Positions 8,241 to 58,054 of a stretch of 64,000 nucleotides of DNA are shown here, one piece after another. Under the pieces are notes generated by a model. The model worked only from the letters and a program-made list of their open reading frames with translations. It did no database searches and was not told the DNA's origin. The stretch comes from Sphaerisporangium rufum (lineage in GTDB: Bacteria; Actinomycetota; Actinomycetes; Streptosporangiales; Streptosporangiaceae). Each line of letters starts with the position of its first letter. Within the stretch, counting starts at the first letter, position 1. Position numbers and translations under genes: made by a program. The stretch spans positions 1 to 64,000 of the forward strand of contig NZ_BOOU01000059.1 of NCBI RefSeq assembly GCF_016863395.1, given 5' to 3'.

Positions 8241-8276
8241 TCCGGCCTTCTCCTCGCACACCGCGTCTCCCCCGGG

Positions 8277-9056
8277 TCAGCGGTGATGCGCGGTGACCAG
8301 CCAGGCGCGGGCGTCGAAGCGGACGCCGTCGCCGGTCATCCGCGCCGCGAGGGCGTCGTGCAGCCGGGCCAGGGCGCCGGCCGCGGTGGCGCCGTCGAGG
8401 TGCTTGAGGGCCTCGTTCGTGCAGGTGAAGCCGCGTACCCACTCGAGGGCCGCAGCCGGGTCGGGGCCGTAGTGGACGGGTTCGCGGACGTCGGCGAGGT
8501 CCACGCCCGCGAACCCGGCGGCCCGCAGGATCTCCGTCACGGTCGCCGGGTCGGCCAGCGAGAACGGGTCCGGTCCGGCGCCGGCGTCCGGCGCCGGGTC
8601 GCCGGGACCGGCGAGCGCCCGGCGGATGGCGACGTCCCACTCGTTGCGGGCGGCGGCCTGCCAGACCAGCATGACCAGGCGTCCGCCCGGGCGCAGCGCC
8701 CGCCCGATGTTGCCGAACGCGGCGATCGGGTCGGCGAAGAACATCGTGCCGAACCGGCTGATCGCCAGGTCGAAGTGGCCCGGCGCGAATTGGTGGGTCT
8801 GCGCGTCGGCGTGCTCGAAGGTGACGTTGCGCAGGCCTTCGGCCCGGGCGAGCCCGCGGGCGCGCTCGACGGCGGCGGCGGAGGCGTCCACGCCGAGCGC
8901 GCCGCCCGGGAGTGCCAGGCGTGCGGCGTCCCGGGTCGTCCGCCCGGCGCCGCAGCCGATGTCGAGGACGCGGTCACCGGGGCGCACGTCCCATGCCCGG
9001 CACAGCACCGCGTGGTAGGCGGCCAGCTCGGCGTCGTAGTCGACCGGCCCGGTCAC
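8277..9056 (-). CDS. class I SAM-dependent methyltransferase
   Basis: A 259-residue methyltransferase with motif I DIGCGAGRT (about 32-40), an acidic residue ending beta-2 (LGVDAS) and a later GRLVMLVW strand. The acceptor is unknown. The GTG start at 9056 overlaps the stop of the upstream LLM oxidoreductase by four bases (GTGA), so the two are coupled and may act on one metabolite. Confidence 0.88.
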   Translation of the reverse strand: MTGPVDYDAELAAYHAVLCRAWDVRPGDRVLDIGCGAGRTTRDAARLALPGGALGVDASAAAVERARGLARAEGLRNVTFEHADAQTHQFAPGHFDLAISRFGTMFFADPIAAFGNIGRALRPGGRLVMLVWQAAARNEWDVAIRRALAGPGDPAPDAGAGPDPFSLADPATVTEILRAAGFAGVDLADVREPVHYGPDPAAALEWVRGFTCTNEALKHLDGATAAGALARLHDALAARMTGDGVRFDARAWLVTAHHR

Positions 9057-9793
9057 GGGCCCGCCTCGATGACCTCGCGCACCACGCTCTCCGGGGGCTG
9101 GGGGTCGAAGCTCGTCAGCACCCAGGTGGCGCCGGCGGCCGCCCACCGCTGGACGCCGGCTCCGGGGGGCACCTCCACCACCAGGTCGAAGTGGCCTTCG
9201 TCTTCACGCGCCTGGGCGACCTCCTCGGCGAGCACGGCCAGCTCCTCGGGGCCGGGCAGGCCGATGGGGAACAGCCCGTCCCACCGCGCCGCCCGGCGCA
9301 CCGGCCGGCGATGCGGCCAGCTCGCGGCGACCCAGACGGGGATGCGCGGGCGCTGGACCGGGAGCGGGTGGAACCCGCCGCGCCAGAACCCGTCGAGCCG
9401 GTCCAGGCTCTCGTCCAGCAGGCGCGCCCGCTCGCGCGGCTCGACGACCTCCCCGAACGGCCCGAGGTCGGCGGGGTCGCCCAGCCCGGCCCCCATGGTC
9501 AGCCGGCCGCCGCTGAGGTGGTCCAGGGTGACCGTCTCGCGGGCCACCTTCTGCGCCCGGCGGCGGGCCAGCGGGGTGACCATCGGCCCGATCCGCAGCG
9601 TCTCGGTCGTCATGGCGATGGCGCTCAACGCCACCCACGGATCGGCCACCGCGCGGCCCGGCGGCGGGTAGGCGATCCGGTCCCACAGGAACAGGCCGTC
9701 CCAACCGCACTGCTCGGCGCGGCCGGCGAGGTCCGCCAGCAGCCGCGGGTCGGCCAGCCGGTCGAACGGCGCCAGATACAGTCCCCGCTTGAT
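9053..9793 (-). CDS. LLM-class flavin-dependent oxidoreductase, non-canonical start
   Basis: A luciferase-like monooxygenase-fold protein; the frame is open from 9799 down. Homology-like sequence (KRGLYLAPFDRLADPRLL, GWDGLFLWD) extends well upstream of the first GTG at 9649, yet no ATG, GTG or TTG exists between the in-frame stop at 9802-9800 and that region. The best start is an ATC at 9793, giving 246 residues, with GAGGGG about nine bases before it; a CTG at 9781 is another option. Starting at the GTG would remove the first beta-alpha unit. Coupled to the methyltransferase downstream. Confidence 0.75.
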   Translation of the reverse strand: MKRGLYLAPFDRLADPRLLADLAGRAEQCGWDGLFLWDRIAYPPPGRAVADPWVALSAIAMTTETLRIGPMVTPLARRRAQKVARETVTLDHLSGGRLTMGAGLGDPADLGPFGEVVEPRERARLLDESLDRLDGFWRGGFHPLPVQRPRIPVWVAASWPHRRPVRRAARWDGLFPIGLPGPEELAVLAEEVAQAREDEGHFDLVVEVPPGAGVQRWAAAGATWVLTSFDPQPPESVVREVIEAGP

Positions 9794-9908
9794 CGCCCCT
9801 CACCCCTCACGATCCGGACGGCCCGTATCCAGCTCCCCGGCAGCCGCCAAATGTCGGTGCAAGCCCTCACAATAGCCACGAAGATCCGGTCGGAGCGAAG
9901 GAGTACAC

Positions 9909-54343: not shown

Positions 54344-54709
54344 CGTTCCTCCTCGCGCGCGGGGGGCCGGGGAGACCGCGCCGCCCGGGCGGTGGCGGTG
54401 GCGCCCGACGCGCCACGACCCGGGCGGCCGCGAGGGCCCGCCGCGTGCCGCCGATCCCGCCGGGCACCCGCATGATCGCACCCATTCCGGCCCGGCGGAA
54501 GGTACGGTGACGGCCGTCCCCCGCCGCGCCGCCGCCGGCCGCTCCGGGGGCCGCACGCGCTCCGGTGGCCGCATCCGGCCACGCTGCAGGCCTCTGACCA
54601 GGCAGATCACCAGGGAATGTCCACCGATAGAGAGCGGATAGCGGTGCCTTCTAGCTTTTTCAGTACGGCCCGGGCATTGGCACCGGCCAGAAGAGCGAGG
54701 GGCTCGGCA
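54344..54709. other. promoter region of the MFS gene and the rightward peptide gene
   Basis: 366 bp without a gene. The left part is very GC-rich and the last 85 bp is AT-richer, carrying the element described at 54625-54665. No other site is evident. Confidence 0.5.
54625..54665 (+). promoter_or_regulatory. upstream element shared by both NTPWG peptide genes
   Basis: CGATAGAGAGCGGATAGC (54625-54642), nine bases, then TAGCTTTTTCAGTA (54652-54665). It aligns without gaps to 55382-55342 on the other strand (16 of 18 in the first block). GATAG occurs twice 11 bp apart. It ends 44 bp before the peptide ATG. Confidence 0.7.
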
Positions 54710-54877
54710 ATGACGAAGCGCATCCAGATCGCCACTCGGTTCACCATCATGGCGATCTTCGCCGTGGGCGGCATCGTCCTCGGCACCACCGCGCAGGCCG
54801 ACTCGGCCCCCGCGACCGCCATCCGCGTCAGCGCCGGCTCCGCCGCGACGATGTACGGCAACACCCCCTGGGGCTGA
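54710..54877 (+). CDS. small secreted peptide precursor ending NTPWG
   Basis: A 55-residue precursor: basic start (MTKRIQIATRF), hydrophobic core, predicted cleavage after TTAQA (about 30), leaving a 25-residue peptide that begins DSAPA and ends YGNTPWG. GAGGGG lies seven bases before ATG 54710; an in-frame ATG at 54617 overlaps the promoter element and is unlikely. A hairpin with TTTT follows. The convergent gene at 55104-55286 encodes a clear paralogue. I do not recognise the family. No modification enzymes lie beside it. Confidence 0.8.
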   Translation: MTKRIQIATRFTIMAIFAVGGIVLGTTAQADSAPATAIRVSAGSAATMYGNTPWG

Positions 54878-54893
54878 TACCCGAAGACACGCG

Positions 54894-54935
54894 GAACGCG
54901 GTCGTGGCCGAAAGGCCCCGGCCGCGTTCGCTTTT
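54894..54935 (+). terminator. intrinsic terminator of the first peptide gene
   Basis: GAACGCGG and CCGCGTTC form the outer stem of a hairpin, with inner GGCC/GGCC pairing, followed by CTTTT, 17 bases after the peptide stop. Confidence 0.75.
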
Positions 54936-54966
54936 CATCATCGGCCAATCCTCGGTGATCGGAGTT

Positions 54967-54986
54967 CCGTCCGGCCGGCCGGACGG
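54967..54986. other. 20-bp perfect palindrome
   Basis: CCGTCCGGCCGGCCGGACGG is fully self-complementary and lies between the two convergent peptide genes. It is followed by a run of seven A (55005-55011). It may be an extra terminator for either gene. Confidence 0.5.
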
Positions 54987-55047
54987 CGATTGGACCGGCA
55001 CAACAAAAAAAGGCCGTCAAGGTGAATGGAAAAGGACCACGAAAATG

Positions 55048-55083
55048 CCGCACGGCCGGAGGCGGTCGCCTCCGGCCGTGCGG
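55048..55083 (-). terminator. strong hairpin terminator of the second peptide gene
   Basis: Two 17-base arms (55048-55064 and 55067-55083) pair perfectly around a 2-base loop; on the minus strand CATTTTC follows. It begins 20 bases after the stop of the leftward peptide gene. Confidence 0.8.
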
Positions 55084-55103
55084 CGGGCCACCGGCCCGTA
55101 CCG

Positions 55104-55286
55104 TCAGCCCCAAGGGGTGTTGGAGTCCTGGGTGGGCGTGGGGGTCGGCGTTGGGACGCCGCTGACCACGGGGTTCGCCGGCACGGAGTCGGCCGTCGCC
55201 GCACCGGCCAGGGCCAGGCCGCCGCCGGTGGCGATGATGGCGAAAAGGGCGATCCTGGCGGTGGCGGACTTGATGTTCTTCGACAT
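55104..55286 (-). CDS. small secreted peptide precursor ending NTPWG
   Basis: A 60-residue precursor: MSKNIKSATARIALFAII, cleavage predicted after AATA (about 32), leaving a 28-residue peptide that begins DSVPA, contains a Pro-Thr repeat (VPTPTPTPT) and ends DSNTPWG. AGGGGA lies seven bases before the ATG. It shares both termini, signal-peptide style and upstream element with the peptide at 54710-54877. The middle part differs, so the ends appear to be the functional part. No known family recognised. Confidence 0.82.
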   Translation of the reverse strand: MSKNIKSATARIALFAIIATGGGLALAGAATADSVPANPVVSGVPTPTPTPTQDSNTPWG

Positions 55287-55341: not shown

Positions 55342-55382
55342 TGATGACAAAGCTATTAGGGGTTGCTATCCGCCCCCTATCG
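55342..55382 (-). promoter_or_regulatory. upstream element shared by both NTPWG peptide genes
   Basis: On the minus strand: CGATAGGGGGCGGATAGC (55382-55365), nine bases, then TAGCTTTGTCATCA (55355-55342), matching the element at 54625-54665. A further CGATA...TATCG inverted repeat lies at 55421-55435. Confidence 0.7.
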
Positions 55383-56086: not shown

Positions 56087-57331
56087 TCACCCGGACGCGG
56101 CCGGTGAAGAGTGCGGCGGGCCGCCGGACGGGGTTTCCGCCGGGGGGTGGACGTCCGGCGGCGGCTCGTAGAGCACCGGCCCGTGTCCGCGGTAGCAGCT
56201 GGTCTTGGCCGACCTGGTCCGGGTGGCGCCGATCTGCAGGTACGCCTCGATCTGCACGCAGCCCTTGCGGGCGATCAGCATGTTGCCCCAGCTGTTCGGC
56301 CGGGCGTCGGCCTTGTAATAGGCGGGTGCGACGGCGCCGTCGACCGGGCGGCGGGTGATGATGTGCACGCTCCAGGTGGCGGAGTTGGGCCCGTAGACGT
56401 AGCCCCAGACCGCATCACACCGCGCCGAGTAGTACAGGGCGAGCGAGCCGTAGGGCTCCTCGTCCGGCCAGAACATGCCCTGCCGCTCGATGAGCCGCTG
56501 GTCGGGCCCGCAGTTGGCGATGTAGGGGTCGACACCGTCATCCGGGACGGGCGGGCCGCCGACCGATCTCCCGGCCAGCCAGGGCGGCTCATCCGGGTGC
56601 AGCAGCCAGCCGCCGGCGCCGCCCGCCAGCAACAGCACCAGCGCGACCGCCAGCAGCCGGCCCGCCGCCCGCCGGCGACCGCCGGACCACCCGGCGCCGC
56701 CCGCGCCGGCCCAGCCACCGGCACCGGCCCAGCCATCGGTGTCGCCCCAGCCGCCCGCGCCGGTCCAGCCGCCGGTGCCGAACCAGCCCGCCCCCGGGCC
56801 GCCGGGCCGCGGCCGGACCGCCCCGTCCAGCGGCCTCTCCCGCGTCCCGGCCGGCCAGAACGCCATCCGTGGCAGCACCATCCCGCGCCGGAGCGGGACC
56901 GGCAGCGCCCGGCCCGGCTCACCGGGCAGGTCTGCCGGGATCCCGCTGCCACCCGGCGCCTCCGTCCCGGCCGCGTCATCGGTGGCCTGGCCATCGGAGC
57001 CCGCCGGCCCGGCGCCGGGCGGCGGGCCGGCGGGGCCGTCCAGTTCCTCCCTGCCATCGCCGTGCGGGTGCCCGGCGGCCGCCTCGCGGGCCGCCGCCCG
57101 CCACCGGTCGCGCCACCAGGGCCAGTCGCCACCGCAGACCCGGACGAACTCGTGCAGCACCCGCTCGGACGGCAACCCCCGCCCGGCGACCGCCGCGGCC
57201 AGTGCGCTCTTGGACACGCCGCACCGGCGCGCCATCCTGCCGAACGGCATCTCCCCCGCCGCCGCGCGCAGGGCGCGTAACTCGCAGGCGAACCGCTCGA
57301 CCGGCCCCCAGGCCGGGTCGAGCGGGCGCAT
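56087..57331 (-). CDS. HTH - single-pass membrane - DUF2690-like protein
   Basis: A 414-residue protein. An XRE-like N-terminal domain (MPFGRMARRCGVSKSALAAA at about 28-50), a Pro/Gly linker, a Gly-Trp-rich repeat (GAGGW units, about 190-225), one membrane helix (LLAVALVLLLAGGAGGWLL) and an outer domain beginning DDGVDPYIANC with CDAVWGYVYG, similar to DUF2690. The topology suggests a membrane-anchored regulator. ATG 57331 is chosen; GTGs upstream are possible. It is divergent from a secreted protein with the same outer domain. Confidence 0.82.
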   Translation of the reverse strand: MRPLDPAWGPVERFACELRALRAAAGEMPFGRMARRCGVSKSALAAAVAGRGLPSERVLHEFVRVCGGDWPWWRDRWRAAAREAAAGHPHGDGREELDGPAGPPPGAGPAGSDGQATDDAAGTEAPGGSGIPADLPGEPGRALPVPLRRGMVLPRMAFWPAGTRERPLDGAVRPRPGGPGAGWFGTGGWTGAGGWGDTDGWAGAGGWAGAGGAGWSGGRRRAAGRLLAVALVLLLAGGAGGWLLHPDEPPWLAGRSVGGPPVPDDGVDPYIANCGPDQRLIERQGMFWPDEEPYGSLALYYSARCDAVWGYVYGPNSATWSVHIITRRPVDGAVAPAYYKADARPNSWGNMLIARKGCVQIEAYLQIGATRTRSAKTSCYRGHGPVLYEPPPDVHPPAETPSGGPPHSSPAASG

Positions 57332-57358
57332 ATGCCGGCCCACCGCCACCACCTCGAC

Positions 57359-57419
57359 TTCTGGACAAAGAAGACAACGAACCTGGTGGCGATTGTCCAG
57401 AAATGTGGCGACTGGACAA
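57359..57419. promoter_or_regulatory. three CTGGACAA sites between divergent DUF2690 genes
   Basis: TTCTGGACAA (57359-57368) and TTGTCCAGAA (57393-57402) are exact inverted copies 24 bases apart, and CTGGACAA recurs at 57412-57419. They cover the shared promoter of the HTH membrane protein and the secreted protein. Confidence 0.75.
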
Positions 57420-57553
57420 TACCGACCGCATACAGGTTCCACGGCGGAAGGTCTGTGACCAAGACCGCTCCGGACCTGGTCCGTCCTGGGCCGGGTCCGC
57501 CCATGTCCACCGCCGAGCCGCACTATTGCGGCGCACCTGGAATCGGAGGTTCC

Positions 57554-58054
57554 ATGCGCAAGTTCATCACCGCCATCGCCTGCGCGCTCATGGCCGTCGG
57601 GGTGACCACCATCACCCAGGCACCGGCCCACGCGGCGTCCGCGGACGCCTGCCTGGCCGCGCCCAGTGCCGCCAACTGTGACGGCGTCGACCCGAGCGAC
57701 GGGCGTGTCCCCTGCCGGAACGGCGCCTGGATGGTGGGGACGGCCTACGGCTATCCGGTCGTCCCCAAGGACAGCCTCGGGGTGCCGGTGAAGGTGCAGA
57801 TCCAGCTGTGGTGGTCGCCGGCCTGCAAGAGCAACTGGGCCCGGATCGTGGCGAACGGGTTGACCGAGACGCTGCCCAACGTCTACCTGCGGGTGCAGGC
57901 GAGCGACGGCCGCACCCAGGGGCTGGTGCACAACGTGGATCCCAGCGGCCTGTGGTCGATCATGTACACCGACCTCGTCTACGCCCCCTCACCGCTGAGC
58001 GCGCGGGCCTGCGCCTCCAACGCGTTCTTCTCCGCCTGCGGGCGATACGTCTGA
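57554..58054 (+). CDS. secreted DUF2690-like protein
   Basis: A 166-residue protein with a signal peptide (MRKFITAIACALMAVGVTT, cleavage after AHA near 27). The mature part has paired cysteines and the DUF2690 pattern CDGVDPSD, IQLWWSPACKSNWARI. GGAGG precedes ATG 57554. It shares its domain with the HTH membrane protein encoded divergently, so it may be its extracellular partner or target (inference). Confidence 0.85.
   Translation: MRKFITAIACALMAVGVTTITQAPAHAASADACLAAPSAANCDGVDPSDGRVPCRNGAWMVGTAYGYPVVPKDSLGVPVKVQIQLWWSPACKSNWARIVANGLTETLPNVYLRVQASDGRTQGLVHNVDPSGLWSIMYTDLVYAPSPLSARACASNAFFSACGRYV

Follow-up and report, generated by a model that had tools for sequence, protein, structure and literature searches.

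The window (the whole 64,000-nucleotide stretch analyzed here, part of contig C59 of the 7.8-Mb genome of Sphaerisporangium rufum) contains two short genes that face each other, each predicted to encode an exported peptide precursor with the C-terminus NTPWG. Gene 1 (positions 54710 to 54877, plus strand, 55 codons) yields a 55-aa product ending in ...QADSAPATAIRVSAGSAATMYGNTPWG, and gene 2 (55104 to 55286, minus strand, 60 codons) a 60-aa product with a Pro-Thr linker, ending in ...TADSVPANPVVSGVPTPTPTPTQDSNTPWG; both assignments draw on the open reading frame and hydropathy, along with conservation of the end within the genus for gene 1 and homologues for gene 2. An initial annotation, made from the letters alone, had described this arrangement together with good ribosome sites, strong terminators, and hydrophobic cores, and each of these features can be recovered: a G-rich stretch lies 5′ of each start (GAGGGG for gene 1, AGGGAA for gene 2), a terminator-like hairpin can be read 3′ of each gene (54903 to 54926, plus strand, for gene 1; 55047 to 55084, minus strand, with a 17-pair stem, for gene 2), and a hydrophobic core, as judged by hydropathy, is clear in the n-region of both peptides.

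Each gene is preceded by a SARP-type box of 7-nt repeats spaced 11 bp apart. The box of gene 1 (GATAGAG-4 nt-GATAGCG; 54626 to 54643, plus strand) scores 33.5 bits in our box model and that of gene 2 (GATAGGG-4 nt-GATAGCA; 55364 to 55381, minus strand) 46.7 bits, the latter with a third, weaker repeat (GGAAGCG) 11 bp further upstream. From the promoter layout, the same −10 element, TAGCTT, follows 8 bp after the last repeat in both (54652 to 54657, plus strand; 55350 to 55355, minus strand). Both genes are copies unlinked to a SARP gene; the linked copy of this genome resides on contig C53 (locus L111). Elsewhere in the window, the frame of an HTH_31 protein (56087 to 57931, minus strand) overlaps that of a secreted DUF2690-type protein (57548 to 58054, plus strand), and one of these two starts may be miscalled.

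A peptide family defined by its C-terminal end

The two genes belong to a family that spans Sphaerisporangium and other Streptosporangiaceae, the groups from which relatives were fetched by name. A DNA pattern for NTPWG followed by a stop, AAYACNCCNTGGGGNTRA, has three matches in the S. rufum genome, all of them family members, and none in the reversed control. The pattern also occurs in 10 of the 11 genomes of the genus (reversed control, 0) and in 11 of 330 further genomes from the family scan (12 matches, against 1 in the control). Counting as a member any frame with a leader and/or the common promoter, and every other frame as chance, we read the 12 matches outside the genus as seven members and five chance occurrences, and one match within the genus (G001, contig C14) likewise proved to be chance. 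Codon matches to TPWG that had no leader, no box, and no conservation were likewise discounted as chance (L034, L035, L041-L043, L045-L048, L050, L052, L058-L060, L063, L064, L066, L068, L070, L071, L086, and L126-L135).

Across 30 family genes ending in NTPWG, the Thr, Pro, and Gly residues are constant while the third codon positions vary, and 9 of 10 pairwise comparisons give a dN/dS below 1 (0.23 to 0.78; the tenth is 1.36), which together indicate that the frames are coding and that their end is under protein-level constraint. The initial annotation had named loss of the NTPWG end in relatives, or a lack of coding constraint, as the findings that would undo its proposal; instead, the end is kept and the substitution pattern is mostly that of constrained genes. 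Its view of a paralogous family of exported peptides is also borne out, in that most members appear to be exported and both orthologues and paralogues keep the C-terminal end. The further suggestion that both termini are fixed holds for one of them only: the C-terminal end is kept, and some precursors contain tandem copies of the unit, but the start of the mature peptide varies, and the DS(A/V)PA motif common to the window pair is not kept across the 60 peptides that we tabulated and was rejected as a family feature.

Single-protein similarity searches within the genus recovered few members, since only the end and the leader are alike, and DNA patterns and the promoter model performed better. 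Pfam holds no family for the two window peptides (E ≤ 1) or for seven relatives (E ≤ 0.1), the only two matches being below threshold and to unrelated families, and NCBIfam likewise returned only subthreshold matches for the tested peptides. Searches of open-license PMC full text listed no paper whose title or abstract deals with this peptide family or with the pairing of a SARP with a secreted peptide pheromone. Propeptides are small: 58 of the 60 measure 31 to 74 aa, and two multicopy ones measure 102 and 109 aa. The initial annotation did not foresee that the promoters carry a SARP box, that a partner SARP gene exists on another contig, that some copies are leaderless, or that the ends are lineage specific.

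A common SARP-type promoter

Fitting 35 peptide promoters to a consensus that we wrote ourselves (best ungapped fit), we found in all 35 GATA and (G/A)AT repeats with a spacing of 11 bp, together with a TANNNT −10 element; the −10 element is TANNTT in 33, and the last heptamer always ends 8 bp before it. The common form of SARP boxes described in PMC10936776 is one of 11-bp direct repeats, the last of which lies 8 bp before the −10 element, and the peptide promoters match it in 35/35 cases.

A box model built from sequence alone has 29 matches at E ≤ 2.7e-7 in the 11 genus genomes, of which 27 precede peptides ending in TPWG, one precedes a peptide ending in GPPWA (L157), and one precedes a decayed copy (L140). 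A 30th match (L260, E = 0.011) again leads into a peptide gene, with the end NGDQPWG. Among the 338 family genomes, 36 contain a match at E ≤ 0.001, for a total of 55 matches, 26 of them outside the genus; this survey covered the Streptosporangiaceae only, and many of its loci are from the same species as the named loci. Of these extrageneric matches, 19 were read, and a peptide gene of this kind follows every one (in one case truncated by a contig end short of the C-terminus); the set used to build the model had included 6 of these 19 loci. The other seven matches include one known member (L121). Because the box model, like the divergent-box pattern described below, was derived from some of the tested sequences, recovery of the model-set loci is circular, and the informative part of the scans is the absence of other strong sites, together with the loci outside the model set.

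The partner SARP gene and its neighbors

In all 11 genus genomes, a peptide copy is located just 5′ of a large AfsR-like SARP gene and has the same orientation. Eight of these cases were seen in 16-kb loci and three (G003, G005, and G007) in shorter loci with the first 243 to 307 matched residues of the SARP, whose linked SARPs were confirmed on recheck. Pfam assigns Trans_reg_C, BTAD, NB-ARC, and TPR domains to the SARP of L111, the architecture of AfsR-type large SARPs, and the 14 aligned full-length proteins span 1025 to 1094 aa. The top match in a PDB search is AfsR itself (E = 1e-170), the alignment ending before the TPR region (profile positions 5 to 737). At L119, L120, and L121, a second, small SARP-like protein (357 to 423 aa) is encoded divergently on the minus strand, ~0.3 to 1.6 kb upstream of the peptide.

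Genes adjacent to the SARP recur as well. Within 5 kb on each side, the only genes found in more than 5 of 32 named loci are the SARP and genes for a transthyretin-like protein (23 loci), a 2-isopropylmalate synthase (leuA)-like protein (21 loci), and a LuxR-type AAA (LAL) regulator (20 loci), in a survey that took the 12 largest gene clusters and named small ones by eye. Genes for transporters or proteases are conserved next to the SARP in at most a few of these 32 loci. A box of the same plan is positioned 5′ of the LAL gene in all 15 located cases, with scores of 4 to 21 bits versus 33 to 54 bits for the peptide promoters, and in no case did any of 500 shuffles reach the box score. On the divergent transthyretin-like/leuA side, 40 of 48 regions carry a box with at most three mismatches, versus 0 of 1,440 shuffles; five species occur twice among these regions, and 35 of 43 remain without the repeats. 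Both sets of shuffles preserve letters only. Two Streptosporangium loci additionally display a three-repeat box of the same plan 5′ of a DUF885 gene. This gene (L166, positions 8247 to 9884, minus strand, with a counterpart in the matching place of L164) lies ~2 kb from the SARP, and its product, which has an HEGVPGHH motif and looks metallopeptidase-like by eye, is conceivably a peptidase with the signal as its substrate.

Leaders and leaderless copies

By hydropathy, most of the 60 tabulated peptides possess a clear hydrophobic core, and in every one of the 11 genus genomes a leader is present on at least one of the unlinked copies. Among the SARP-linked copies of Sphaerisporangium, 7 of the 10 intact ones have no hydrophobic leader and 3 have a weak or intermediate one, and the unlinked copies at L106 and L109 also lack a hydrophobic core. 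In the eleventh genome, that of S. melleum (G005), the linked peptide gene has lost its frame, leaving an out-of-frame PPWG stretch (L140, identical to part of L162). With the leader mostly lost and this last copy decayed, export of the SARP-linked copy in Sphaerisporangium is doubtful. The leaderless copies still carry TPWG; this end may have an intracellular role, or these copies may leave the cell by some other export route. S. melleum also has an unlinked exported copy with the altered end GPPWA (L157), perhaps a drifted signal.

The wider SARP clade

A wider scan by SARP alignment found 175 relatives, the best 80 of which were kept as named loci. Among these, 43 (L159-L200 and L221; identity ≥ 53%) form a related clade; 41 of them are in the SARP tree, and seven are Sphaerisporangium genomes again. 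In 36 of the 43 loci, the SARP gene is preceded by a small peptide gene, and 34 of these 36 peptides have Pro-Trp at or near the end, the exceptions being L187 (CCGFP) and L192 (CCGSWP). No peptide was seen upstream of L162 (where it is decayed), L191, L193, L196, or L221, nor at L163 or L197, where the upstream sequence is short. Two of these loci, L191 and L221, are from Streptomyces and hold a clade SARP (57% identity) with no recognizable peptide or box upstream, reflecting either another signal or a lost one. At the 37 more distant SARP loci (L201-L238 without L221), the 1.3 kb upstream of the SARP revealed no exported peptide of the PW type; two of these loci, L215 and L226, offer less than 600 bp of upstream sequence. 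Two ORFs ending in PW at such loci lack leaders and were dismissed as chance, and other exported-looking ORFs are present at L220 and L236.

Peptide ends track the SARP phylogeny. Scored as the residue before PW or as a Cys-Cys class, the end type changes 10 times over 36 rows of the SARP tree, compared with a mean of 17.1 for shuffled labels (0/300 as few), and 10 times versus 14.1 after thinning to 26 rows (0/300 as few). The correspondence is not strict, in that the sisters L174 (PTPWG) and L175 (FGTPWGQG) differ, and it can arise from common descent alone. Cys-Cys ends (CCNPWG, CCSPWP, CCGFP, and CCGSWP, at L172, L180, L167, L187, and L192) appear in two separate SARP clades, which suggests a convergent disulfide variant. 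In four species, the precursor holds tandem units (five GDPWD in L183, three GDPWG in L182, four GQDPW in L188, and four AEPWG in L195), the strongest hint in these sequences that processing frees the short PW unit.

The TPR region of the SARP

The TPR part of the SARP of L189, modeled with 34 aligned sequences (pLDDT, 93.1; pTM, 0.89), retrieves LGN/Pins TPRs first in Foldseek, many of them in complexes with peptide partners, with Rap-pheromone complexes at ranks 36, 44, and 48. VIA-align Z scores are 30.9 for APPBP2 with its degron, 30.7 for an anaphase-promoting-complex subunit, 30.3 for Rap with pheromone, 30.1 for RapF with its peptide, 27.2 for both NprR and MalT, 25.4 for NprR-NprX, and 22.3 for AimR-arbitrium. 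Eukaryotic TPRs match the model as well as or better than the Rap-pheromone complexes; since TPR folds match so widely, the model permits peptide sensing and does not prove it.

A proposed pheromone circuit and its alternatives

The reading that we consider most likely, with a probability of roughly 0.6, is an autoinducing loop in which a secreted peptide acts as a pheromone and activates its SARP. What leads to it is the conjunction of a peptide predicted to be secreted and conserved at its C-terminus, an adjacent TPR regulator, boxes of the regulator's type on every gene copy that was read, tandem units, and a correspondence between peptide ends and the SARP tree. The sequences demonstrate a peptide family, its linked SARP, common boxes, tandem units, and tree-following ends; we infer export, cleavage, uptake, TPR binding, the identity of the SARP as the box binder, the direction of control, and the output. 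In the proposed circuit, the two window genes would encode secreted propeptides whose active unit is a short C-terminal xPWx segment (here, NTPWG), in some species cut from tandem copies. Once exported by Sec and released, the peptide would reenter the cell through an oligopeptide transporter and bind to the TPR domain of the large SARP (BTAD, NB-ARC, and TPR), whose gene occupies a fixed locus in another part of the genome. This binding would open the NB-ARC switch and allow the SARP to engage the 11-bp direct-repeat boxes, driving the linked and unlinked peptide genes (autoinduction), as well as the divergent transthyretin-like/2-isopropylmalate synthase genes and the LAL regulator, which would carry the output. 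Of the two arrows in this loop, that from the SARP to the peptide genes is well supported by the boxes, and that from the peptide to the SARP is conjectural. The broader proposition, that the clade's large AfsR-like SARPs are intracellular receptors for encoded, secreted xPWx pheromones with clade-specific pherotypes, strikes us as evenly balanced. Under it, the signal of Sphaerisporangium would be distributed over the unlinked exported copies and the leaderless, possibly intracellular, copy.

AfsS, the small protein controlled by AfsR, is not known to have an export leader, unlike most copies of the peptide family. The comparison matters for the main rival, itself unlikely, in which the peptides are output and not input: the SARP would sense another cue, and the peptides would be AfsS-like intracellular effectors or secreted bioactive products. 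In its favor, AfsR activates the small gene afsS, its best studied target (PMC10936776); the leaderless copies preserve NTPWG with no export signals, and the boxes speak for control of the peptide by the SARP, the reverse arrow being the conjectural one. Such an assignment sits poorly with the export leaders of most copies, with ends that follow the SARP tree, with tandem units typical of processed ligands, and with a TPR domain that resembles peptide-sensing TPRs.

The tandem units and the Cys-Cys variants CCNPWG, CCSPWP, and CCGSWP also look like multicore precursors, and the PW(G/D) core might be enzymatically modified (cyclized or disulfide bonded) into a secreted product of the RiPP type. 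We regard this as improbable: no modification enzyme stands out among the conserved neighbors (32 named loci, ≤5 kb on each side), the leader is Sec-like in place of a RiPP leader, and the tested peptides belong to no curated Pfam or NCBIfam family. Wall-associated or structural exported peptides that merely happen to be SARP controlled would account for the export leaders, the Pro-Thr linkers, and a below-cutoff match of peptide 2 to an NCBIfam sorting signal (E = 0.013), but the predicted single-copy products of ~25 to 40 residues with no visible anchor, the dedicated common promoter, and the leaderless members make this explanation very improbable indeed. Among the three ideas in the initial annotation (signaling, wall-associated, or peptidase-processed peptides), signaling fares best.

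Relation to known systems and significance

One of the closest known systems is RRNPP(A) quorum sensing (Rap-Phr, NprR-NprX, PlcR-PapR, and AimR-AimP), with which the present pair has in common a small propeptide predicted to be exported, a short C-terminal unit, and an adjacent TPR regulator. Five criteria are listed for RRNPP in PMC10075063: a propeptide of 10 to 100 aa, Sec secretion, a receptor of 250 to 500 aa, peptide-binding TPRs, and adjacent genes. Propeptide length agrees here, with two multicopy forms just above 100 aa, and so does gene adjacency, the two window copies being unlinked, whereas the SARPs, at ~1030 aa and with both a SARP DNA-binding and an NB-ARC domain, far exceed the receptor size; for this reason, we do not file the pair under RRNPP, although it may work like one by analogy. 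The tandem xPWx precursors likewise recall the multiple pheromones that some RRNPP propeptides carry (PMC11343458). Further differences are the occurrence in Actinomycetota, whose signals are typically small molecules according to the RRNPP literature cited above, and the presence of several unlinked propeptide genes under one box type.

Compared with AfsR-AfsS of Streptomyces coelicolor, the regulator architecture is the same, and AfsR too activates a small gene through 11-bp repeats, which overlap the −35 region (PMC10936776); the peptides here differ in mostly having export leaders, ending in xPWx, and sitting upstream of the SARP. NosP, the SARP of nosiheptide biosynthesis, is reported to respond to ligands that originate from a ribosomal precursor peptide (Li et al. 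2018, as summarized in PMC10972967 and PMC6930871). These ligands are nosiheptide and an intermediate, NosP belongs to an antibiotic cluster, and those summaries describe no dedicated pheromone gene.

Whether any inducer binds the TPR domain of AfsR remains elusive, as PMC10936776 states. For this question of large-SARP inducers, the family provides candidate short ligands with naturally occurring specificity variants, the gene of a cognate regulator, and a defined promoter, so that the question becomes testable with synthetic pentapeptides. If the pheromone reading is true, TPR-based peptide signaling would extend to the Actinomycetota as a class of peptide quorum sensing, and regulators of the SARP/NB-ARC/TPR type would have peptide inducers, offering a simple chemical handle on a type of regulator that activates antibiotic production.
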